Part shown: positions 30,107 through 51,306 of the stretch, piece after piece
Numbering within the stretch: position 1 is the first letter of the stretch
Layout of the letters: every line of letters begins with the position of its first letter
NCBI GenBank assembly: GCA_003151595.1
Contig: PLXW01000146.1
Span: 30,452 to 87,878 of the forward strand
Origin: Myxococcales bacterium
GTDB taxonomy: Bacteria; Myxococcota; Polyangia; Polyangiales; Polyangiaceae
Direction of reading: 5' to 3'
Length of the DNA: 57,427 nt
The notes under the pieces: generated by a model
The model's input: only the letters and a program-made list of their open reading frames with translations
Told to the model about the DNA's origin: nothing
Database searches by the model: none
Made by a program: the position numbers and the translations under genes

Positions 30107-30631
30107 ATGTCCTTTCAACCCACGCACGCTCTCGTCGCCGTCACCCTCGCCCTGGCGCTCACAGGCTGCGCTCGCACGACGCCCGACGAGCAGGCGCACG
30201 ACGCCGCTCCGCCGCCGCATGTCGCGCCCGCGAGCGGAGAGACGTGGAACGCGGCGCAGGTCGACTGGCAGCCGTACGAGAGCGGTCTGCAGCAGGCGAA
30301 GGACGCGAACAAGCCCGTGTGCCTCGTCTTCTACACGACGTGGTGCCCGCACTGCCGGAACTACAGTCACGTGTTCGACGACCCGCGCGTCGTCGAGCGC
30401 GCGCGCGACTTCGTCATGGTCCGGCTGGATGCCGACGCCGAAGCGACCATCGCGGCGAAGTACCAGGTCGACGGCGGGTACATCCCGCGCACGTACTTCC
30501 TCGCCCCCGACGGCACGCTCGACCGGACGATTCACGCCCCGCGCCCGCGAGCCCAGTACTTCTACGATGAGCGCGATCCCGGCTCGCTGCTGGCGGGCAT
30601 GAGCACGGCGCTGCAGAAGCTCGTTCACTAG
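30107..30631 (+). CDS. thioredoxin-fold lipoprotein
   Basis: A 174-residue lipoprotein with lipobox LALTGC at about residues 16-21, then a thioredoxin-like domain: CLVFYTTWCPHCRNYS carries the redox CxxC (WCPHC), FVMVRLDADAE is the beta-alpha-beta core, and YIPRTYFLAPDG supplies the cis-proline. This resembles the thioredoxin_7/DsbD-gamma-like group that reduces or isomerises periplasmic disulfides. In a region dense with Cys-rich secreted proteins, a redox role is plausible but inferred. ATG 30107 is the only start giving a signal peptide. Confidence 0.87.
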   Translation: MSFQPTHALVAVTLALALTGCARTTPDEQAHDAAPPPHVAPASGETWNAAQVDWQPYESGLQQAKDANKPVCLVFYTTWCPHCRNYSHVFDDPRVVERARDFVMVRLDADAEATIAAKYQVDGGYIPRTYFLAPDGTLDRTIHAPRPRAQYFYDERDPGSLLAGMSTALQKLVH

Positions 30632-37378: not shown

Positions 37379-38422
37379 TCACTCGTCGATCGAGTCGGCC
37401 GCGCTCTTCATCGTGGCGAACGCTCCTCGCGGGAGGCGCTTCGCGTCGTGGAAGATCCCCTTGTCGTCCATCGCCAACCAGATGGGCGGGTTCTTCTGCC
37501 GCGCTTCGAAATAGAGGACGAGCGTCTGCTGCTTCCCCTTCTTTTCGCGCCACAGATCGAACGCGAACGTCTCGTCCGATTTGTAGAACGCTTCGAGCGT
37601 GGTGCGCGCGGTGTCGAGCGGGAGCGACTCCACCTTGCCGTCGGAGTCGACGTCGTCGCGTTCCTTCGGGAGCGCCTTCCACGCCGCGGTGAGCGCCTTC
37701 GTCTGCACCTCTTGCGACGCGCGCGCGTTCGCTTTCGTTCGAAGGCGCACCCGCTCGCGCGTCGCCAGCGACACCACCGGATCACGCGCGCGCTCGAGGC
37801 GCTCGATGGCGAAGCCCGACGACACGATCCCCGCGATCAAGATCGCCGCGAGCCGGCCGCGCGCGTGCGCCACATGGTAATGCACGACGCTCGTGAAGAT
37901 CGGCATCAGGAAGACGAGGACCACGATCGTCTCCACGCCGAACGTCTTGGCGGCGATCGGCCAGAATTGCCGGAGCCCGAGCTCGGGTGGAAAGAAGCGC
38001 ACGTACTGGACACCGAGCGAGACGACGAGGATCGCAAAGCTCGCCAGCGTGTACCCCTTGAAGAGGAGGAACTCGCGACGCGCCTCTTTCTGCGTGAGCC
38101 AGTACGGGAAAAGAAGCGGATAGAAGACGTAGTAGAGGAACGCGCGCGGCGGATGCGCTCGGTAGTACGCCTCGAACTGGAGCTGGCTCGAGAGCACGAG
38201 ATTTGCGAGCTTCGAGCGTGAAGAGAGCTCGCGCGCGGCTTCCGCGAGCACGAAGACGAAGAGCGCGACGCCGATCTGGATGACCGCGCCGCTCACGGGA
38301 TAGAGCGCGGCGACGAGCACCAACAGACGCGGCGCTACGGCGAAGAACGCCAATCGCGTGACGAAATCGAGCGTGGCCTTCGCCTGCACGTGCGTGATCC
38401 GAATGGTACTCGATGCACCCAC
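37379..38422 (-). CDS. hypothetical multi-pass membrane protein
   Basis: A 347-residue protein with about five hydrophobic segments: LAFFAVAPRLLVLVAALYPV, QIGVALFVFVLAEA, FLYYVFYPLLFPYWLT, LFKGYTLASFAILVVSLGVQ and VETIVVLVFLMPIFTSVVHY. A roughly 130-residue soluble C-terminal domain follows (ETFAFDLWREKKGKQQTLVL, IFHDAKRLPRGAF) with mixed strands. HYHVAHARGRLAAI near the last helix could bind metal. No family recognised. It converges on the MocR gene with 6 bases between stops. Confidence 0.75.
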   Translation of the reverse strand: MGASSTIRITHVQAKATLDFVTRLAFFAVAPRLLVLVAALYPVSGAVIQIGVALFVFVLAEAARELSSRSKLANLVLSSQLQFEAYYRAHPPRAFLYYVFYPLLFPYWLTQKEARREFLLFKGYTLASFAILVVSLGVQYVRFFPPELGLRQFWPIAAKTFGVETIVVLVFLMPIFTSVVHYHVAHARGRLAAILIAGIVSSGFAIERLERARDPVVSLATRERVRLRTKANARASQEVQTKALTAAWKALPKERDDVDSDGKVESLPLDTARTTLEAFYKSDETFAFDLWREKKGKQQTLVLYFEARQKNPPIWLAMDDKGIFHDAKRLPRGAFATMKSAADSIDE

Positions 38423-38529: not shown

Positions 38530-40809
38530 ATGAGTGGACACTTCGCTGACTGGCCGAAGGCCGGGCCCATCGATCTCGCGGTTCACGATCTTCCTCACGC
38601 TTCGTCGACCACCGAGTGGTGGTACGTGAACGCGCACGTCGAGACGGGAGACGGAAGGCCGCTGTCGCTCTTCGCCGCGTTCTTCCGGTTGCGGAAAGTT
38701 GCGAAGAAGCCGACCGACCCTCCCGAGTGGGCGTACTCGCTCACGTGGGCCGTCAGCGATCCGAGCGCGCGCGCCTACTACCCGGACTCGCGCGTCGATG
38801 CGAGCGCACCGGAAGTGGGGCTCGAGCGGATCAAGAGCGGGCGCGGATCGAAAGACGAGCGACTCAATCGCGCGATGCGCGAGGTGCTCGAGCGCGGCGT
38901 GGTGCCGGAGCCCGATCGCGTGTTCGAGCAAGTCCCGTTCGTGGCGTCCGGAAAGTTGGAGCTCGACTTCGCGGGGTCGCGGTTCGAGAAGCTCGAAGAC
39001 GGGACGTACCGGTTGCGCCTGCAGAACGATCGGCATCAGTGCGGGTGCGATCTCGTCTTCACGTTGAAGAAGCCGCCGATCCGCCACGGCGAAGACGGCG
39101 TCGTGAAGGGGCACGGCGGCGAAGACATGTTTTATTACTTCGTCCCGCGCTGCGACGTGCGTGGCGAGGTCACGTTGCGCGGAACGACGAGCACGGTGAA
39201 GTGCGGCTCGGGTTGGTATGACCACGAGTTCGGCGGATACGTCGCGCCCAAGAAAGATGTGAACGCACCGAAGAGCGAGGAGAAGGTCGACGAGAAGAAG
39301 ATCCTCGAGTCCCAGCACATCGACGTGGCGTGGAACTGGGTCGGCCTTCAGCTCGACGACGGCACCGACCTGAGCGCGTATTCGCTCGTGCGCCTCGATA
39401 CGGGTGAATCACGCTGGCAGCGCGCGGTCCTGATCGACGCGAAGGGGAATCGGACGTCGCACGGCGAGATCAAGCTCACGCCAGGACCATCGTGGCGAAG
39501 CACGCGCACGTTCCACGACTACCCGACGACGTGGAAGCTCGAAGTGCCGGAGGCGCATCTGTCGCTCGACCTCACGGCGAGCTTCGACGATCAAGAGTTC
39601 ATCACCGTCATCTCCAAGCCCGCGTTCTGGGAAGGGCGCGTGGAAGTGAGCGGGACGATCGACGGGCGCGCCGTGAAGGGGACCGGGTACCTGGAACGGA
39701 GCGGGTTCGAGCCGATCAAGAACCTCGACGACTACTTCAGCGCCGTCGGTGAGGAGGTTCGGAAGTCGGTCGCGGCCGTGTTGCCGCTCGACCCGACGTA
39801 CGAAGAGGCGCGGCAGCTCATCGCCTCGAAAGAGCGCGACCACTACATGGAAGGGGTCAGCCTGAAGCAGATGTCGCGCGCGCTCATCGCGCCGATTCGC
39901 GAGATCACCGATCGCGGAGGGAAGTCGTGGCGCTCGTACGCCGCGCTGGCGTGCTGCGACGTCGTGAAGGGGGACTCGCGAAAATTCGTTCAATGGCTGG
40001 CGATGCCCGAGCTCCTTCACGTGGGGTCGCTCATCGTCGACGACGTGCAAGACAAGTCGGTCGTCAGGCGCGGCAAGCCCACGGCGCACGTCGTCTACGG
40101 CGAGCCGATCGCGATCAACGCCGGCACCGCGGCGTACTTCCTCGCGCAGAAGGTCATGTTCTCGAAGGACATGTCCGACGCAAAGAAGCTCCGACTCTAC
40201 GATCTGTATTTCGAAGCGATGCGCGCCGGGCACGCAGGGCAAGCCGCGGATCTCGACGGACCCGCCGACCTGATGCCGGCTGCCGTGGCGAGCGGCGACT
40301 CGAAGGCGCTCGAGCTTCGCATCCTGGCGACGCATCGCTTGAAGACGGCGTCGCCCGCGGGGGCGCTCGCTCGGATGGGCGCCGTCGCCGGCGGCGGAAC
40401 GGAAGCGCAGATCGAAGCGGTGGGGCGCTTCTTCGAGTCGCTGGGGCTCGCGTTTCAGCTCGTCGATGACGTGCTCAATCTGCGCGGCTTCAAGGGCGAG
40501 CTGAAGGCGACGGGCGAAGACATCGCGAACGGGACGATTACGCTGCCGGTGGCCAAGGCCATGTCGCGACTCTCGGAGCCGGACCGCGCGTGGGTGTGGC
40601 GAACCTTGTCGTCGAAGCCGAAGGACCAGAAGGTCGTGAACGAAGTGGTGCAGAAGCTCGAGGCGTGCGGCGCGATCGAAGCCGTGGCGACGGAGGCGCG
40701 CGACCTGGTGGAAGAGGCGTGGACGCGGGCGTCGCCGTTGCTCGACGACTCGATCTCGAAGGTGATGCTCCGCGCGTTCGGCTGGTACGTCCTCGAACGG
40801 CACTACTGA
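38530..40809 (+). CDS. CrtC/AttH-like lipocalin domain fused to polyprenyl diphosphate synthase
   Basis: A 759-residue two-domain protein. Residues 1 to about 395 resemble the AttH/CrtC (carotenoid 1,2-hydratase-like) lipocalin fold: HASSTTEWWYVNAHVET at the start, FYYFVPRCDVRGEV, CGSGWYDHEFGGY, WNWVGLQLDDGTDLSAY and GTGYLERSGF. Residues about 430-745 are an E-type polyprenyl synthase: LLHVGSLIVDDVQDKS holds the first Asp motif (DDVQD, 504-508) followed by RRGKPTAH; the second motif is DDVLN (646-650) in FQLVDDVLNLRG. Asn replaces the last Asp, as in eukaryotic GGPP synthases. The product chain length and hydratase/cyclase substrate are unknown. A glycosyltransferase follows at 13 bases. Confidence 0.9.
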   Translation: MSGHFADWPKAGPIDLAVHDLPHASSTTEWWYVNAHVETGDGRPLSLFAAFFRLRKVAKKPTDPPEWAYSLTWAVSDPSARAYYPDSRVDASAPEVGLERIKSGRGSKDERLNRAMREVLERGVVPEPDRVFEQVPFVASGKLELDFAGSRFEKLEDGTYRLRLQNDRHQCGCDLVFTLKKPPIRHGEDGVVKGHGGEDMFYYFVPRCDVRGEVTLRGTTSTVKCGSGWYDHEFGGYVAPKKDVNAPKSEEKVDEKKILESQHIDVAWNWVGLQLDDGTDLSAYSLVRLDTGESRWQRAVLIDAKGNRTSHGEIKLTPGPSWRSTRTFHDYPTTWKLEVPEAHLSLDLTASFDDQEFITVISKPAFWEGRVEVSGTIDGRAVKGTGYLERSGFEPIKNLDDYFSAVGEEVRKSVAAVLPLDPTYEEARQLIASKERDHYMEGVSLKQMSRALIAPIREITDRGGKSWRSYAALACCDVVKGDSRKFVQWLAMPELLHVGSLIVDDVQDKSVVRRGKPTAHVVYGEPIAINAGTAAYFLAQKVMFSKDMSDAKKLRLYDLYFEAMRAGHAGQAADLDGPADLMPAAVASGDSKALELRILATHRLKTASPAGALARMGAVAGGGTEAQIEAVGRFFESLGLAFQLVDDVLNLRGFKGELKATGEDIANGTITLPVAKAMSRLSEPDRAWVWRTLSSKPKDQKVVNEVVQKLEACGAIEAVATEARDLVEEAWTRASPLLDDSISKVMLRAFGWYVLERHY

Positions 40810-40822
40810 GAGGACGCGCCGC

Positions 40823-42106
40823 GTGCACGCGATCCTGATCGGATTCGGCAGCGCCGGAGACGTACTCCCGCTCGTGGGGATCGGACGCACGCTGACGTCG
40901 CGCGGGCATCGCGTGAGCGTGGTGGCGAACGAGCACTTCGGAGCGGCGGTGGCGCGCGCGAAGCTCGAGTTCATTCAGTTCGGATCGGAGGAGCTGTACC
41001 AGCGGGGTGCCTCCGATCCGAGCGGCACGCATCCCATCAAAGGCTTCCAGTCGCTGATGGCCGTCGTCGCCGGCGCGACCCGCCCGCTCTACGATCTGCT
41101 CGCCGAGCGATTCGTCCCTGGCGACACCGTGGCGGTGGCGACGTCGCTCGCGTTCGGCGCGCGCCTCGCGCAGGACAAGCTCGGGCTGCCGCTGATTACC
41201 GCGCACCTTTGCCCGCTCGCGTTTCGCAGCGACTACGATCACATCGTGGTGCCGGCGCTCCCCGAAGTGCGGTGGGCGCCGCGATGGGTGAAGAGCTTCG
41301 TCGGGTGGGCGGGCGACACGTTCGTGCTCGATCCGCCGATGCAGAAGGAGCTCGACGCGGTCTGCGCCGATCTCGGGCTGCCAGCGGTGCACCGCCCTTG
41401 CCATCGCTGGTGGAACTCGCCGGCGCAGGTGATGGGGCTCTTTCCGAGCTGGTTCGGCGCGCCGCAACCCGACTGGCCCGAGCCCACGCGGCTCGTCGGG
41501 TTCATTCGCGATCCGATCGAGGAGGAGTCGGCGCTGTCGCAGGAGGTCGAAGCGTTCCTCGCAGCGGGCGACGCGCCGGTCATCTTCACGCCGGGGTCGG
41601 CGAGCGGGCACGGGAAGGCGTTCTTCGAGACGGCGGCGGCCGTATGCGCGACGTTGAAGGTGCGAGCGATCTTCGTCACGCAGTTCGCCGATCAGATCCC
41701 GGCGAGCCTTCCGCGCGAGATCCTTCACGTGCGTTACGCGCCGTTCGCGCGACTCGTGCCGCGCGCGTCGGCGCTGGTGCATCACGGTGGGATCGGCACC
41801 GCCGTGCAGGCCATGGCCGCGGGCGTTCCGCAGCTCGTGGTCCCCGTGAGCTACGATCAGCCCGACAACGCGGCGCGCCTCGAGCGCCTCGGCATCGCGC
41901 GCACGCTGCTCCCTCGTCGCTTCCGGCACGACGCGGTGGCGCGTGACCTCGGCGTGCTGCTCGAGTCTCCCGACGTGCGCCGCGCATGCGACGCCGTCGC
42001 CGCTCACTTCCGCGACGAGACCGCGCGCGACGACGCCTGCGCGCTCATCGAGGGGATGCTGGCGCGGCCGGCGGCGTCCGCGCAAAGAGCCACAGCGCGA
42101 GGGTGA
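40823..42106 (+). CDS. GT1 (MGT-like) glycosyltransferase
   Basis: A 427-residue GT-B glycosyltransferase of the UDP-glycosyltransferase/macroside type. The acceptor domain starts HAILIGFGSAGDVLPLVGIG; the donor domain has PVIFTPGSASGHGKAFFETA, RYAPFARLVPRASALVHHGG and the signature HHGGIGT at 320-326, then VPQLVVPVSYDQPDNAARLE. Such enzymes glycosylate small lipophilic acceptors, including sterols, carotenoids and macrolides. The start is GTG 40823, 13 bases after the lipocalin-prenyl synthase gene, so they form an operon; the likely acceptor is that pathway's product. Its 3' end overlaps the convergent MFS gene by 62 bases. Confidence 0.92.
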   Translation: MHAILIGFGSAGDVLPLVGIGRTLTSRGHRVSVVANEHFGAAVARAKLEFIQFGSEELYQRGASDPSGTHPIKGFQSLMAVVAGATRPLYDLLAERFVPGDTVAVATSLAFGARLAQDKLGLPLITAHLCPLAFRSDYDHIVVPALPEVRWAPRWVKSFVGWAGDTFVLDPPMQKELDAVCADLGLPAVHRPCHRWWNSPAQVMGLFPSWFGAPQPDWPEPTRLVGFIRDPIEEESALSQEVEAFLAAGDAPVIFTPGSASGHGKAFFETAAAVCATLKVRAIFVTQFADQIPASLPREILHVRYAPFARLVPRASALVHHGGIGTAVQAMAAGVPQLVVPVSYDQPDNAARLERLGIARTLLPRRFRHDAVARDLGVLLESPDVRRACDAVAAHFRDETARDDACALIEGMLARPAASAQRATARG

Positions 42107-44644: not shown

Positions 44645-46168
44645 ATGGCAAAGAAGGTCGCGCTGTTCTGGCCGGGCGACGCCCGTGCGAAGCCGAACGA
44701 GCTCGCGAAGCCGAGCATCCTCGAAGCGACCGCGCAGATGGAGCGCGCGCTGAAGAAGCTCGGACGCGATCCGTACCTGGTCGAAGGGTTTCTATCGAAG
44801 CCGCACGAGTCGATCGAGAAGCTCGGACCGATTCACGATCCGATGATCGGCGTCTGCGTGCACTGGTTCTACGGGCCGCACACGTGCGACGGCGTCGTCG
44901 GCAAGGACAACCCGCTGCTCCTGGCGAGCAACTTCTCCGGTCGATGGCCCGGCCTCGTCGGCCTCCTCAACACCGGCGCGTGCCTGGAGATGCTCGATCG
45001 GCCGTTCGCGCGCGCGTGGACCGACGCGGCCGACTGGACGAAGGACGCCGTCTTCATGGAGCGCCTCGACGAGTGGTGCAGCGGCGGATCGATCGCCTAC
45101 GCCGAAGACGAGATCGCGTACCACGCGCCCATCACGAAGGCCGAGTCGGCGCTGGCGCGCAAGGTCGCCGACGAGATCCACGCGCGCAAGATCCTCATCC
45201 TGATGCTCGGCGATACGTCGATGGGGATGATCAACGGCTACTTCGGGCCGCGCCTCCTCCATCCGCGCGGCTTCACCGAGCACAAGGTCGACCAGGCGTG
45301 GATCATCGATCGCGGGCGGCGCATCGAGCAAAAGCGCATCGACGACGCGTTCGCGTTCGTGAAGAGCAAAGGGGTCACGTTCCACTGGAAGGAACGCGGC
45401 GCCGACGACTTCGACGAGAGCGCCACCAAGGAGCAGCTCCGCGATTACCTGGTCGCGCTCGATCTCCTGCACGAGTTCAAAGCCGACTGCCTCGGCTGGC
45501 AATACCAGCTCGGCCTCATCCCGCTTCGCGCGCCGTCCGACTTCGCCGAGGGGCTCTTCAACTCGACGTGCCGCCCCGAATCGAACGGCGACACGATCGC
45601 GACGGCGACCGAGGCCGACCAGGGGAACGTCGTGCCGATGGAGATGCTGAAGCGTCTCTTGAAGGCCAAGGGGCTCCACCAGGCGGTGATGTTCCACGAC
45701 GTGCGGTGGGGCGCGGAGCACGACGGGCGATTCTTGTGGGTGCTCCTCAACTCGGGATCGTGCGGCGCGTACGCCTTCAACCACGATCCCGACACGCTGA
45801 AAGGCGTGCACTCGTATCGACAGCCGTCGCTCTACTTCCCGACCCCGGGCGGGACGTTCGCCGGCGAGAGCTTGCCGGGCGCGATGACGTGGGCCCGCGC
45901 GTACATCAAGAACGGCGAGCTCTGGATGGACATCGGTCGCGGCGAGGTCGTCAAGCTCCCGCCCGACGTGCGCGACTCGTGGTGGGAGGGGACGACGCGC
46001 GAATGGCCGTTCATGGCGGCCGACATGGGGATCTCGCGCGACACGCTGATGGCGCACTACCTGTCGAACCACGTCGCGGTCGCGTACGGCGACGTGTTCG
46101 GCGAGATGATCGCACTCTCGCAGGAGCTCGGCTTCCGCGTGCGCGTGCTCGGGCGTCGCGATGCCTGA
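44645..46168 (+). CDS. L-fucose/L-arabinose isomerase family protein
   Basis: A 507-residue aldose-ketose isomerase of the FucI/AraA superfamily. The N-terminal domains contain [20 protein letters not shown] and [20 protein letters not shown]; the central part has [20 protein letters not shown], and the C-terminal domain [20 protein letters not shown] with likely Mn-binding His, Asp and Glu. Members interconvert L-fucose/L-fuculose, L-arabinose/L-ribulose or D-arabinose/D-ribulose. It is the first gene of a five-gene operon and overlaps the kinase gene by 8 bases. The D-ribulokinase-like partner suggests D-arabinose isomerase activity. Confidence 0.88.
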
Positions 46169-47816
46169 CGCGCGCTTCTTCTTGGGGATCGACGTCGGCA
46201 CGGCGAGCGTGCGCGCGGGGCTCTTCGACGGCGAAGGGAAGATGCACGGCGCTGGGGTCGAAGCGATCCGAGTGAACCGACCGCGCGAGGACTTCGTCGA
46301 GCAGTCGTCGGACGACATCTGGCGCGCGGCCGGAGTGGCGACGCGCGCCGCGCTCTCGATGGCGAACGCGAAGCCCGAGTCGGTGCTGGGGATCGGGTTC
46401 GACGCCACGTGCTCATTGGTGGTGCTCGACGATCGCGACGCACCGGTGAGCGTGAGCCCGTCGAACGACGACGCCTGGAACGTCATCGTGTGGATGGATC
46501 ACCGCGCGACCGAGCGGGCCGAGCGAATCAACGCCACGAAGCACGAAGTACTTCGGTATGTCGGCGGCGTCGTCTCGCCGGAGATGGAGACGCCGAAGCT
46601 CCTGTGGCTGAAAGAGGAGATGCCCGGTACGTGGGCGCGGGCCAAGCGGTTCCTCGATCTGCCGGATTTTCTCGTGTATCGCGCGACGGGCAACGACGTG
46701 CGATCGACGTGCACGACGGTCTGCAAGTGGACCTACCTCGCGCACGCGCCGGCCGGGCAACGATGGGACGCGAGCTACTTCCGCGCCATCGGCCTCGGCG
46801 ATCTCGCCGACGAAGGGTTCGCGCGGATCGGGACCGACGTGCGGCCGATGGGCGAGAGGGCCGGCGTGCTCAGCGAGCGATCGGCGCGGGAGCTCGGGCT
46901 CGTCGCGGGGATTCCCGTCGGCGTCGCGATCATCGACGCGCACGCCGGAGGGATCGGCCTGCTCGGCGCGAGCGTTCCCGGATCGGGCGACGACCTCGGC
47001 GAGCGACTCGCGCTCATCGGAGGTACCTCGAGCTGCCACATGGCGATCTCGCGCGAGCCTCGGTTCATCCCGGGGATCTGGGGGCCGTACTCGTCGGCGA
47101 TGGTCCCGGGGTGGTGGCTCACCGAGGGGGGTCAGTCGGCGACCGGCGCGCTCCTCGACTATGTGATCGGAACGCACGCCGAGGCGGTATCGCTGGCGCG
47201 CGAAGCGAAGGCGAACGGCACCCACGCCGCGGCGATCTTGAACGCACGCCTCGAGGTGCTCGCCAACGACGCGAAGCTCCCCTCGCCCGCGCTGCTCACG
47301 CGCGACCTTCACGTGCTCCCCGATCACCACGGGAACCGATCGCCGCGCGCCGATCCGTCACTGCGCGGGATGGTCTCGGGGCTCAAGCTGACCGAAGGAC
47401 GTGACGCCCTCGCGCTCCTCTACCTGGCGACGGTGCAGGCGCTGGCGCTCGGCACGCGTCACATCCTGGAGACGATGCGCCAGCACGGGTATCGCGTGAC
47501 GACGATCATAGCGACCGGCGGCGACACCAAGAACCCGCTCTTCCTCCAGGCACACGCCGACGCGACCGGGTGCCGCGTCGTGTTGCCGCGCGAGCCCGAA
47601 GCGGTGCTTCTCGGAGCGGCGATGCTCGGCGCGGTCGCGAGCGGAACGCGCGCGTCGATCGAGGAGGCGATGCGCACGATGAGCGCTGCCGACCGCGTGA
47701 TCGAGCCGGGCCCGCGCGATGGCCGCGAGGCGTCTTTCTTCGACGCGAAGTACGCCGTCTTCCTCCGAATGCACGATGATCAGCTCGCGTACCGCGCCCT
47801 CATGCGCGGCGCGTGA
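46161..47816 (+). CDS. FGGY-family pentulose kinase, D-ribulokinase type
   Basis: A 551-residue FGGY kinase. The phosphate loop is [20 protein letters not shown]; substrate-binding features include [15 protein letters not shown] and [29 protein letters not shown] sequence ([20 protein letters not shown]) marks the C-terminal ATP site. Residues 83-87 read TCSLV within [13 protein letters not shown], a signature described for D-ribulokinases (yeast YDR109C, human FGGY) and absent from L-ribulokinases. So D-ribulose to D-ribulose 5-phosphate is the best guess. It overlaps the isomerase by 8 bases and precedes the importer genes by 13 bases. Confidence 0.92.
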
Positions 47817-47829
47817 AGGAGCAGCGGGG

Positions 47830-48840
47830 ATGCGAAGGCGAACGTGGCTGTGGTCGGTCGTGGCGATCGCGTTCGCGATCGCGTGCAACAAGAGCACTGC
47901 CCAGACGACGAGCGACGGAGCGACGATCGCCGCGAAGCCGCGCATCGCCGTGATCCCCAAGGGCACGACGCACGAGTTCTGGAAGTCGGTGCACGCCGGC
48001 GCCGTGAAGGCGTCGCAGGACGCGAACGTCGACATAGTCTGGAAGGGGCCGCTCAAGGAAGACGATCTCAAGTCGCAGATCGATCTCGTCGACAGCTTCG
48101 TGGCCCAGGGGGTCACCGGGATCGTTCTCGCGCCGCTCAGCGACACGGCGATGCGCGGATCGGTGAAGGCCGCGAAGGGGGCGAAGATCCCGGTCGTGAT
48201 CTTCGATTCGGATCTTCAAGGCGACGATCACGCCAGCTTCGTCGCCACGGACAACGACGCCGCCGGGAAGATGGCCGGCGAGGAGATGGCGCGGTTGCTC
48301 GGCGAGAAAGGGAACGTCGTCGTCCTCCGCTACCAGGAAGGATCGGCGAGCACGTCGCACCGCGAGCAGGGTTTCCTGGACGCGATCAAGACGCACGCCG
48401 GCATCACGGTCGTGAGCGCAAACCAGTACGCCGGCGCGACGACCGAGAGCGCGTTCGCGACGAGCGAGAGCTTGCTGGCAGCGCAGAAGGCGGCGTCGGG
48501 CGGCGTCGCGGGGGTGTTCGCGCCGAACGAGTCGACCACGTTCGGGATGTTGCTCGCGCTGCGCAAAGCGGGGCTCTCCGCGAAGGTGCACCTCGTCGGG
48601 TTCGATGCGTCGAGCAAGTTGGTCGACGCGCTCGGGACGGGCGAGATCGACGCGCTGGTGGTGCAGGATCCCTTTCGCATCGGTGAGCTCGCGGTCAAGA
48701 CGATGGCGCAGGTGCTGCGCGGCGAAGCGGTCGAGAAGCGAATCGACACCGGCGCGAAGCTCGTGAACAAGGCGAACCTCGCGCAGCCCGAGATCGCGAC
48801 GCTGCTCCATCCCGATTTGAAGAAGTGGCTCGGCGAGTGA
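47830..48840 (+). CDS. sugar ABC transporter substrate-binding protein, RbsB-like
   Basis: A 336-residue periplasmic sugar-binding protein (Peripla_BP_4 type) with an export signal ending at a lipobox-like FAIAC (Cys near 19). Mature features: RIAVIPKGTTHEFWKSVHAG, DSFVAQGVTGIVLAPLSDTA, VVIFDSDLQGDDHASFVATD and VAGVFAPNESTTFGML, with VHLVGFDASSKLVDAL in the C-lobe. RbsB-like proteins bind ribose, allose, xylose or related monosaccharides. It directly follows the pentulose kinase and precedes the ATPase gene by 1 base. Confidence 0.93.
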   Translation: MRRRTWLWSVVAIAFAIACNKSTAQTTSDGATIAAKPRIAVIPKGTTHEFWKSVHAGAVKASQDANVDIVWKGPLKEDDLKSQIDLVDSFVAQGVTGIVLAPLSDTAMRGSVKAAKGAKIPVVIFDSDLQGDDHASFVATDNDAAGKMAGEEMARLLGEKGNVVVLRYQEGSASTSHREQGFLDAIKTHAGITVVSANQYAGATTESAFATSESLLAAQKAASGGVAGVFAPNESTTFGMLLALRKAGLSAKVHLVGFDASSKLVDALGTGEIDALVVQDPFRIGELAVKTMAQVLRGEAVEKRIDTGAKLVNKANLAQPEIATLLHPDLKKWLGE

Positions 48841-48841
48841 G

Positions 48842-50350
48842 ATGAGCGAAGGCGCGGCGCGTCTCTCGATCCGCGGCGTAGCGCGCGCGTTCGGCGCGAC
48901 CAAAGCGCTGGTGTCGGTCGACCTCGAGGCGTGCGCGGGAGAGGTGCACGCCGTCGTCGGCGAGAACGGCGCGGGCAAGAGCACGCTGATGAAGATCCTC
49001 GCCGGCGCGATCACGCCCGACGCGGGGGAGATGGCGCTCGACGGCGCTGCGTTTCGTCCGCGCTCTCCGCTCGAGGCGCGCGCGGCCGGCGTCGCCATCG
49101 TGAGTCAGGAGCTCGCGCTGTGCGCGCACATGACGGTGGCCGAGAACGTGACGCTGGGGCGCGAGCCGTCGCGGTTCGGCGTCATCGATCGCGCGGAGGT
49201 GACGCGAATCGCACGCGCCGCGCTGGCCGACGTGGGGCGGGCGGATCTACCGCTCGATGCGCGCGTGGGGGATCTCCCGATCGCCGAGCAACAGCTCGTC
49301 GAGATCGCGCGCGCGCTGGCCGGCGAGTGCCGCGTGCTCATCCTCGACGAACCGACGAGCAGCCTCGGTCGCGGCGACGTGGAGCGCCTCTTCGATCGCG
49401 TGCGCCGGCTGAAGGAACGCGGCGCGACGATCCTCTACATCTCGCACTTCCTTGAAGAAGTCCGCGCCATCGGCGATCGTTTCACGGTCCTCCGCGACGG
49501 CGCGACGAGCGCCACGGGGAACGTCGCCGACGTGACCGACGCCGACATCGTGCGCGCCATGGCCGGGCGCCCGGCGTCCGCGCTGTTCGTTCGCGGTGAA
49601 CGCACGCGCGGCGAAGCGATCCTCACGCTGAGCGATCTGGCCGGCGTCGCCAAGCCTTCGCGCGCCAGCCTCGTACTCCATCGCGGCGAGGTGCTCGGGA
49701 TCGCGGGACTCGTCGGCGCGGGGCGCACGGAGATGCTTCGCGCGATCTTCGGGCTCGACGCCGTCACGCGCGGGACCATTCGCGTGAAGTCGTGGAGCGG
49801 CGCCGCGCGTCCGCCGCTTCGCCTGGCACAAGGGGTCGGGCTCCTCAGCGAAGATCGCAAGGCCGAAGGGCTCGCGCTCTCCATGTCGATCGCGGACAAC
49901 GTGACCCTGTCGCATCTCGACGGGCTCGGACCGTGGCGCTTCGTCCTCCCTTCGCGCCAAGATGCCGCGGCCTCGAAGTGGATGGGCGAGCTGGCGATCA
50001 AGGCGCGCGACGCGTCGCAGGCCGTGATCGATCTGTCGGGGGGGAACCAGCAGAAGGTCGCGCTGGCGCGGCTGCTCCATCACGACGTCGACGTCGCGCT
50101 GCTCGACGAGCCGACGCGAGGGATCGACGTCGCCAGCAAGCAGCAGATCTACACGCTCATCTCGCGCCTCGCGTCGGACGGAAAGGCCATTCTCTTCGTG
50201 TCGAGCTATCTCCCAGAGCTGCTCGGCGTATGCGACCGTATCGCCGTGATGTGCCGCGGCGTCCTCGGTGAAGCGAAGCCCGCGAGCGAATGGACCGAGC
50301 ACGCGCTGCTCGAAGAAGCGACCGGCCTCGCGCGGGAGCGTGCATCGTGA
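48842..50350 (+). CDS. sugar ABC transporter ATP-binding protein, RbsA/MglA-like
   Basis: A 502-residue tandem ATPase. The N-terminal half has a normal Walker A GENGAGKST and Walker B VLILDEPTSSL, but a weak signature (IAEQQLVEIARAL). The C-terminal half has a degenerate P-loop (GLVGAGRTEML) and a strong signature LSGGNQQKVALARLL with VALLDEPTRGIDV. This asymmetry is typical for RbsA/MglA/XylG carbohydrate importers, where the single chain makes both ATPase sites. It starts 1 base after the binding protein and overlaps the permease start by 4 bases. Confidence 0.96.
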   Translation: MSEGAARLSIRGVARAFGATKALVSVDLEACAGEVHAVVGENGAGKSTLMKILAGAITPDAGEMALDGAAFRPRSPLEARAAGVAIVSQELALCAHMTVAENVTLGREPSRFGVIDRAEVTRIARAALADVGRADLPLDARVGDLPIAEQQLVEIARALAGECRVLILDEPTSSLGRGDVERLFDRVRRLKERGATILYISHFLEEVRAIGDRFTVLRDGATSATGNVADVTDADIVRAMAGRPASALFVRGERTRGEAILTLSDLAGVAKPSRASLVLHRGEVLGIAGLVGAGRTEMLRAIFGLDAVTRGTIRVKSWSGAARPPLRLAQGVGLLSEDRKAEGLALSMSIADNVTLSHLDGLGPWRFVLPSRQDAAASKWMGELAIKARDASQAVIDLSGGNQQKVALARLLHHDVDVALLDEPTRGIDVASKQQIYTLISRLASDGKAILFVSSYLPELLGVCDRIAVMCRGVLGEAKPASEWTEHALLEEATGLARERAS

Positions 50351-51306
50351 ACGCCTTGAAACGCGTGACGGGCCTCACACGGCGCGCGTGGTTCGGACCG
50401 CTGGTCGCGCTCGTTTGCGTGTACGCGCTCTTTGCGATCTTGAAGCCCGACACGTTCGCGCGCGCGTCGAACCTCACGACGATGGCGCGACAGACGGTGG
50501 TCGTCGCCATCGCGGCGGTCGGCGCGACGCTCGTCATCGTGCACGGCGGGATCGATCTCTCGGTCGGCTCGGGCGTCGCGCTGGCCACGGTCGTCATCGC
50601 GTCGCTCCTCAAGTCGGGCCACGGCCCCATCGCCTCTTCGCTCGCCGGGATCGCCGTGCTCGGCGCGGCGGGGCTGGCCACGGGCGCCATCGTCACGCGG
50701 ATGAAGATCGCGCCCTTCATCGTCACGCTGGGCTCGATGAGCATCCTGCGCGGCGTGGCCAAGGGGGTCGCCGACGAACAGAAGATCGACGTCGACCCGC
50801 ACGGGCTCGACGCGCTCCTCGCCGTCCCCGAGCACGGCCCGTTCCCGATGGGTGTGTGGATCGCCATCGCCATCGCCGTCTTCTTCGCCGCCGTCCTCCG
50901 CTACACGCGCTTCGGTCGTCACGTCTTCGCGGTCGGAAGCAACGAGGCGACCGCGCGCTTGTGCGGCGTCGAGGTCGACCGCGTGCGGATCGCCGTCTAC
51001 GCGATCGCAGGGCTCCTCGCCGGCATCGCGGGGGTCATGGAGTTCTCGACGCTGACCGTCGGCGATCCGACTGACTCGATCGGACTCGAGCTCGAGGTGA
51101 TCGCCGCGGTCGTGATCGGCGGCGCGTCGCTCTCCGGCGGCGAAGGGACGATCGCCGGATCGATGATCGGCGCGCTCCTGATGACGGTCATCAAGACCGG
51201 CGGCACGCACCTCGGCTTGCCGAACTGGGTGCAGGAGATCGTCACGGGCGCGATCATCCTGGCGGCCGTCGCGATCGATCGCGCGCGCAAATCACGCACG
51301 CGCTGA
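50347..51306 (+). CDS. sugar ABC transporter permease, RbsC-like
   Basis: A 319-residue BPD_transp_2 permease with 8-10 helices. Family signatures: GATLVIVHGGIDLSVGSGVA near residue 60, FIVTLGSMSILRGVAKG near 120, and GVEVDRVRIAVYAIAGLLAG, then EVIAAVVIGGASLSGGEGTI for the EAA-like loop contacting the ATPase. GTG 50347 overlaps the ATPase stop as GTGA, which decides the start. It forms a homodimer with one RbsA-type chain. It is last in the operon. Confidence 0.95.
   Translation: MNALKRVTGLTRRAWFGPLVALVCVYALFAILKPDTFARASNLTTMARQTVVVAIAAVGATLVIVHGGIDLSVGSGVALATVVIASLLKSGHGPIASSLAGIAVLGAAGLATGAIVTRMKIAPFIVTLGSMSILRGVAKGVADEQKIDVDPHGLDALLAVPEHGPFPMGVWIAIAIAVFFAAVLRYTRFGRHVFAVGSNEATARLCGVEVDRVRIAVYAIAGLLAGIAGVMEFSTLTVGDPTDSIGLELEVIAAVVIGGASLSGGEGTIAGSMIGALLMTVIKTGGTHLGLPNWVQEIVTGAIILAAVAIDRARKSRTR

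Follow-up and report, generated by a model that had tools for sequence, protein, structure and literature searches.

A lipocalin double barrel joined to a geranylgeranyl diphosphate synthase-type enzyme in a myxobacterium: a candidate for making and modifying a prenyl chain

Why should an enzyme that builds prenyl chains carry lipocalin barrels on the same polypeptide? The question is raised by a 759-residue open reading frame (ORF) of a Myxococcales bacterium (assembly GCA_003151595.1, contig PLXW01000146.1), found in a stretch of 57,427 nucleotides (positions 30,452 to 87,878) that is called here the window. A sequence-only reading had described the product as a lipocalin (CrtC/AttH-like) domain fused to a polyprenyl diphosphate synthase, and the domain matches, predicted folds, conservation and gene neighbourhoods of this protein have now been computed. 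The fusion of a lipocalin double barrel with a complete trans-prenyl diphosphate synthase in one chain is confirmed. As for its function, the protein may be a bifunctional, presumably cytosolic terpenoid enzyme in which a geranylgeranyl diphosphate (GGPP) synthase works with a terminal prenyl hydratase and feeds a glycosylation step; the probability given to this reading is roughly 0.46.

The evidence for the fusion is of several kinds. All three Pfam matches lie above their curated cut-offs, and two of them, PF07143 and PF17186, place the N-terminal half in the CrtC/AttH family, as had been claimed; a lack of such matches would have refuted that claim. The AlphaFold2 (AF2) model, built from 43 fusions, has a mean pLDDT of 90.7 and a pTM of 0.88, with confidence below 50 at residues 242-262; its two halves are a mostly beta part that ends near residue 395 and a helical synthase that occupies the chain from residues 400-420 or so to the C-terminus. 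A database search gave 1464 matches at E <= 0.001, the best 120 of which (own protein included) all have the three Pfam domains, at 59-100% identity. Given these listed relatives, and others encoded at 147 loci of the genome contig collection, the fusion is not an assembly artefact. Of the NCBIfam models, 17 match but none reaches its curated cut-off (the best are f2_encap_cargo4, 138.8 against 450 bits, and IdsA, 135.9 against 468), so that no named equivalog applies. Automatic annotation already recognises both parts, as can be seen from entries named, for example, "geranylgeranyl pyrophosphate synthase/predicted secreted hydrolase". No publication describing the fusion was found among titles and abstract openings of the open-licence literature, which is weak evidence of absence.

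Is the synthase half likely to work? It has the two Asp-rich motifs of trans-polyprenyl diphosphate synthases, the arginine pair after the first aspartate-rich motif (FARM), and the Lys, Arg and His residues of the isopentenyl diphosphate (IPP) site. The alignment used for conservation has 85 rows; L003 (no Pfam lipocalin match) and L004 (synthase domain only) were left out, L104 and L105 were added, and L001 and L104 were trimmed to the lipocalin-synthase part. Within it D504, D505 and D508 are present in every row, G499 and S500 in 84 each, and DDVQD, the arginine pair, Lys605 and Lys465/Arg468/His497 in 84-85. The essential Lys and Arg of the pocket, whose loss would have refuted the sequence-only reading, are therefore in place.

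The next question is how long a chain this half would make. Small residues stand at positions -4 and -5 of the FARM, as in type-III GGPP synthases, and Tyr536, Phe537 and His568 align to Tyr107, Phe108 and His139 of the yeast enzyme (query 30-113 on 2dh4 68-151; the yeast Ser71 of PMC9729869 likewise agrees with an offset of 5). According to the same paper, altering these three residues in yeast GGPP synthase lengthens its product. Since the fusion has the residues that set chain length in type-III enzymes, and changing them lengthens the yeast product, the synthase half is predicted to make a C20 chain, GGPP, and the unusual chain length suggested earlier finds no support.

The same reading had drawn attention to the second motif, DDVLN, as a form seen in eukaryotes. 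This likeness holds locally: around the FARM the fusion matches synthases of plants, human and yeast as well as fungal chimeric ones, and position 650 is Asn in 82 of the 84 readable fusions (Asp in two; the remaining row has a gap). In 10 genomes that carry a fusion, 19 stand-alone synthases were readable, and not one of them has this Asn or the type-III chain-length set. This contrast set comprised 20 of the 30 non-fusion matches, from 10 of 12 genomes, and leaving out L131, which had been read in a wrong frame, brought it to 19. A eukaryotic origin is not shown, however, because over the whole half a plant GGPP synthase and bacterial enzymes outscore the human and yeast ones; by fold, the top match is an archaeal GGPP synthase. 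Each of 12 fusion genomes carries at least two further prenyl synthase matches, so that the fused synthase looks additional and specialised within them.

The lipocalin half has a candidate active site of its own. In fold it resembles AttH and kievitone hydratase, with the two orthogonal lipocalin-like barrels of the AttH family. The presumed proton donor, Asp231, is Asp in 84 of the 85 aligned fusions and Glu in the other, and both tryptophans of the presumed Trp-x-Trp pair, W268 and W270, are present in all. Asp231, Trp268 and Trp270 would correspond to the essential Asp268, Trp283 and Trp285 of CrtC; the register comes from the Pro-to-Asp spacing of 25 in the mutagenic primers of two CrtCs (PMC4717167), equal to P206-D231 and followed by the WxW, no CrtC sequence having been aligned. 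Trp30 (77/85) and Trp31 (79/85; six gaps each) are also well kept, neither of them placed against CrtC Trp110. Foldseek also matched 25-phosphosteroid lyase (E 3e-10 at best, with a TM to target of about 0.5 and a root-mean-square deviation of about 9-10 A), a likeness set aside as too loose. Two other proteins, P0285 and P0321, have a PX domain joined to the same double barrel, with no synthase match by Pfam; the PX domain suggests that their carriers are eukaryotic (protist).

Taken together, how might the two halves act? The C-terminal half would convert IPP and an allylic diphosphate to all-trans GGPP. The double barrel may then bind the terminal isoprene unit of the C20 chain, presented as the diphosphate or, after dephosphorylation, as the alcohol. 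Asp231 would protonate the terminal double bond, the Trp residues would hold the carbocation, and water would capture it to give a tertiary alcohol; hydration, over other outcomes of protonation, is what we infer. The idea that one chain makes a prenyl group and then hydrates or cyclises it stays plausible, the Asp and Trp pair of prenyl hydratases being kept (comparison with PMC12402844), with substrate channelling between the steps a conjecture; an assignment to CrtC proper finds no support, as discussed below.

In the window a last step may follow, in which the UDP-sugar-type glycosyltransferase (UGT) encoded by the next gene, 13 bp past the fusion stop, would glycosylate the product. This gene is probably a partner of the fusion. 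Its relatives were met by tblastn in four of 85 loci (L001, L019, L074 and the window), to which clustering adds L067. In two proteins the association is covalent: L001:9646-14175, on a Tolypothrix plasmid, and L104:5593-10104, in a genome of the myxobacterial phylum, encode sulfotransferase-glycosyltransferase-lipocalin-prenyl synthase chains of 1509 and 1503 residues, with glycosyltransferase domains of the same Pfam families as that of the window. Across 244 genomes of the cyanobacterial phylum the four-domain protein was not found, the sole match (G010) being to the lipocalin-synthase part. One may speculate, with more doubt than for the two-domain enzyme, about a new class of terpenoid assembly-line enzyme in which a single chain makes GGPP and hydrates (or cyclises) its far end in the barrel. 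Certain lineages would add glycosylation and sulfation, so that all four steps leading to a sulfated terpene glycoside would be united in one polypeptide. Near the four-domain gene of L104 are genes for a cis-prenyltransferase of the UppS family (L104:11926-12654) and a sulfatase (L104:4053-5216).

Several observations weigh against a hydratase that feeds glycosylation. A UGT-type gene stands at +1 or +2 in four of 83 loci (L001 additionally has it fused), and 49 of the 83 have no same-strand gene within 150 bp downstream, four of the 83 having less than 300 bp of sequence left there; L003 and L004 were likewise omitted from this count. PF06722 was also matched in 8 of 14 control genomes, and no constant operon partner was found across the loci examined. 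With regard to the enzyme itself, the hydratase literature covered reports no action on a prenyl diphosphate, and no biochemistry was found for any member of the fusion. The Asp and WxW are also kept in the A. fabrum AttH protein of unknown activity, so that these residues may mark the fold and not hydration. Moreover, His239, Trp241 and Tyr266, three of the four residues first reported as essential in CrtC (PMC4717167), are Tyr202, Phe204 and Trp229 in the fusion by the primer-derived register. Judging from sequence, we class the protein as an enzyme of the GGPP synthase type whose partner domain is hydratase-like, and do not count it as a CrtC.

Could the barrel instead close rings? A class-II-like GGPP cyclase would begin with the identical protonation by Asp231 and quench the cation by ring closure. 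The conserved aromatic-rich site (Tyr202, Phe204, Trp229, Trp268, Trp270) is consistent with this, and a terpenoid scaffold would be in keeping with the genes for a P450 and an FkbM methyltransferase that lie close to the Telluribacter fusion and have relatives in Spirosoma. A cyclase is nevertheless quite unlikely: a D.DD search of the 759 residues found no DxDD motif of class II terpene cyclases, no cyclase is among the lipocalin-half matches listed, and the nearest solved enzyme of known reaction, kievitone hydratase, adds water. A little less unlikely, and a serious rival, is a role without catalysis, in which the lipocalin half would serve as an AttH-like lipid carrier, receiving the prenyl product and passing it to membrane enzymes or transporters. 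Such a role would agree with the ABC (ATP-binding cassette) ATPase and FtsX-type permease genes, the context known for AttH, that lie two to eight genes away in five of 85 loci (L010, L016, L027, L031, L034), a further point against a hydratase. However, just 13 of the 85 loci have ABC ATPase relatives, and the one in the window belongs to its sugar importer; no FtsX protein is among the window genes examined (34.9-51.3 kb). Furthermore, the hydrophobic N-terminus of A. fabrum AttH (2.23 on a 15-residue Kyte-Doolittle window) has no counterpart in the fusions (0 of 83 above 1.8), and the Asp/Trp site is conserved nearly without exception.

The closest relative, L005, raises one more objection, because there the fusion trails a menaquinone-type run (L005:27-9876) in which TPP-enzyme, ECH, UbiA, MenC-type and AMP-binding genes point in one direction, as in a men operon. 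Is the protein then chiefly a polyprenyl synthase for menaquinone, with the lipocalin part helping in side-chain delivery? This is very improbable, since the run is headed by a synthase gene of its own (L005:27-1103, PF00348 E 1e-54), the fusion genomes have the further synthases mentioned above, the floor residues are of the C20 type, and no menaquinone-type gene is among the window genes examined. The GGPP synthase with a terminal hydratase remains the preferred reading.

The combination is a recurrent one. Of the 147 loci, 80 were retained, mostly with Myxococcales or Deltaproteobacteria labels, together with Spirosoma, Telluribacter, Saprospiraceae, Chitinophagales, Cyanosarcina and Vicinamibacterales; by label, fusion records also occur in Bacteroidota, Cyanobacteriota, Acidobacteriota and Actinomycetota. 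At E <= 1e-60, 26 of the 188 genomes sampled from the myxobacterial phylum have a match (one truncated on the N side, one split across two contigs), as do 4 of 247 from the phylum to which Spirosoma belongs, two of these four matches being weaker and partial. Among plasmids, coverage of the query reaches 80% or more in three records, two from Tolypothrix and one from Streptomyces canus, with identities of 33% and 32%. When each half was searched alone, two-part proteins were again near the top, and many rows had one part only, mostly on short contigs; P0144/P0270, P0178/P0268 and P0191/P0282 are possibly split or frameshifted genes, as the members of each pair have an identical largest-contig size.

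Between fusions, identity in one half tracks identity in the other (r 0.83 for 3570 pairs from 83 loci plus L104 and L105; r 0.77 for the 3465 pairs with lipocalin identity below 70%), as expected for one unit and also for plain shared descent. In a tree of 42 of the 85 rows the bootstrap is unsettled, and S. canus, Tolypothrix and L105 sit on very long branches; the tree was used solely for the pairing of the window with L005. Contigs labelled Klebsiella pneumoniae, Caldiserica and Thermoplasmata (L031, L077, L078) also carry the fusion and are probably mislabelled or mis-binned contigs of metagenome-assembled genomes. On a Nitrosomonas stercoris plasmid, L003:7362-9311 encodes a prenyl synthase with an N-terminal part of about 340 residues that has no Pfam match; an FMO-like gene comes after it.

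The surroundings of the fusion hold other genes; locus genes were taken from a codon-scored caller, whose calls are rough, in place of longest ORFs, since at about 68% GC antisense ORFs abound. Upstream of the fusion and divergent from it, at 37379-38422 (-), is a gene for 347 residues with apparent membrane segments and no Pfam or NCBIfam match. Downstream, at 44645-51306 (+), a fucose-isomerase-like protein, an FGGY kinase and the sugar ABC importer (ABC genes at 47.8-51.3 kb) stand in a row as a cluster for sugar utilisation, and nothing visibly connects it to the fusion. Nothing among the window genes examined points to a carotenoid biosynthesis setting, no genome-wide search for carotenoid genes having been made. 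Elsewhere, in 21 loci, the gene directly after or before the fusion (+1 or -1) belongs to a family of about 200 residues (e.g., L010:3604-4221); neither Pfam nor NCBIfam gave a match for the members tried. Close to the fusion in L020 (12324-14060) and 19 other loci is a membrane protein of about 580 residues, with an invariant ADD near its N-terminus and a GT-C-like predicted fold.

Table 1. Positions in the window of the fusion gene, its domains and motifs, and the gene that follows it
Feature	Residues	Position	Strand	Basis
Fusion gene, AttH/CrtC-like lipocalin double barrel and type-III-like GGPP synthase	759 aa	38530..40809	+	Single ORF, ATG 38530 to stop 40809
CrtC N-terminal lipocalin barrel	28-235	38611..39234	+	Pfam PF07143, E 5e-21
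Motif WYDHEFG, with presumed proton donor Asp231	229-235	39214..39234	+	Aligned with WYDRQWG of kievitone hydratase 7a0q (profile alignment)
Second lipocalin barrel	265-392	39322..39705	+	Lipocalin_9 PF17186, E 2e-26
WNW, presumed Trp-x-Trp pair of prenyl hydratases	268-270	39331..39339	+	Aligned with WTW of 7a0q (profile alignment)
Interdomain stretch, with helix 399-417	393-420	39706..39789	+	AF2 secondary structure
Polyprenyl synthetase domain	452-709	39883..40656	+	polyprenyl_synt PF00348, E 3e-47
First Asp motif DDVQD (FARM); small residues G499/S500 ahead	504-508	40039..40053	+	Motif by sequence and alignment
Second Asp motif DDVLN	646-650	40465..40479	+	Motif by sequence and alignment
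UDP-sugar-type glycosyltransferase (EryCIII/MGT-like)		40823..42106	+	PF06722 E 2e-15, PF00201, PF03033

What would such an enzyme mean? If the reading is correct, it would describe a terpenoid route, met repeatedly, whose prenyl synthase has a hydratase-like domain of its own for modifying the chain end. The fusion offers a way to test function in the AttH/lipocalin family, which has no known activity, and it points to a possible cofactor-free terminal hydration of C20 chains, which is of interest in synthesis (PMC12402844). To judge by sequence comparison, the parts are known ones, the join is unusual and recurrent, and the active sites are well conserved.

Each part has its relatives among known systems. 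CrtC of Rubrivivax gelatinosus shares PF07143 and, in the inferred register, the catalytic Asp and Trp pair, and it works on the terminal isoprene of a prenyl chain; unlike the fusion, it is membrane-associated and described without a synthase, and it has the three residues that are replaced here. Water addition to a prenyl group is the reaction of kievitone hydratase (Nectria haematococca, 7a0q), but this enzyme is fungal, acts on prenylated isoflavonoids, has 16% identity to the fusion and lacks a synthase half. AttH (NE1406, 2ich) has no known activity, and its A. fabrum relative differs in its hydrophobic N-terminus and ABC/FtsX neighbourhood. The type-III GGPP synthases of yeast and human share the DDxxD with small residues at -4/-5, the Tyr-Phe floor and the His of the C20 stop; they are stand-alone and eukaryotic, whereas the fusion is bacterial and joined to a lipocalin half.

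In architecture, a parallel exists in the fungal chimeric terpene synthases, such as the variediene and copalyl diphosphate synthase chains, where a type-III-like prenyltransferase is C-terminal to a terpene-modifying domain. In those chains the partner is a helical cyclase, whereas in the fusion it is a lipocalin barrel.
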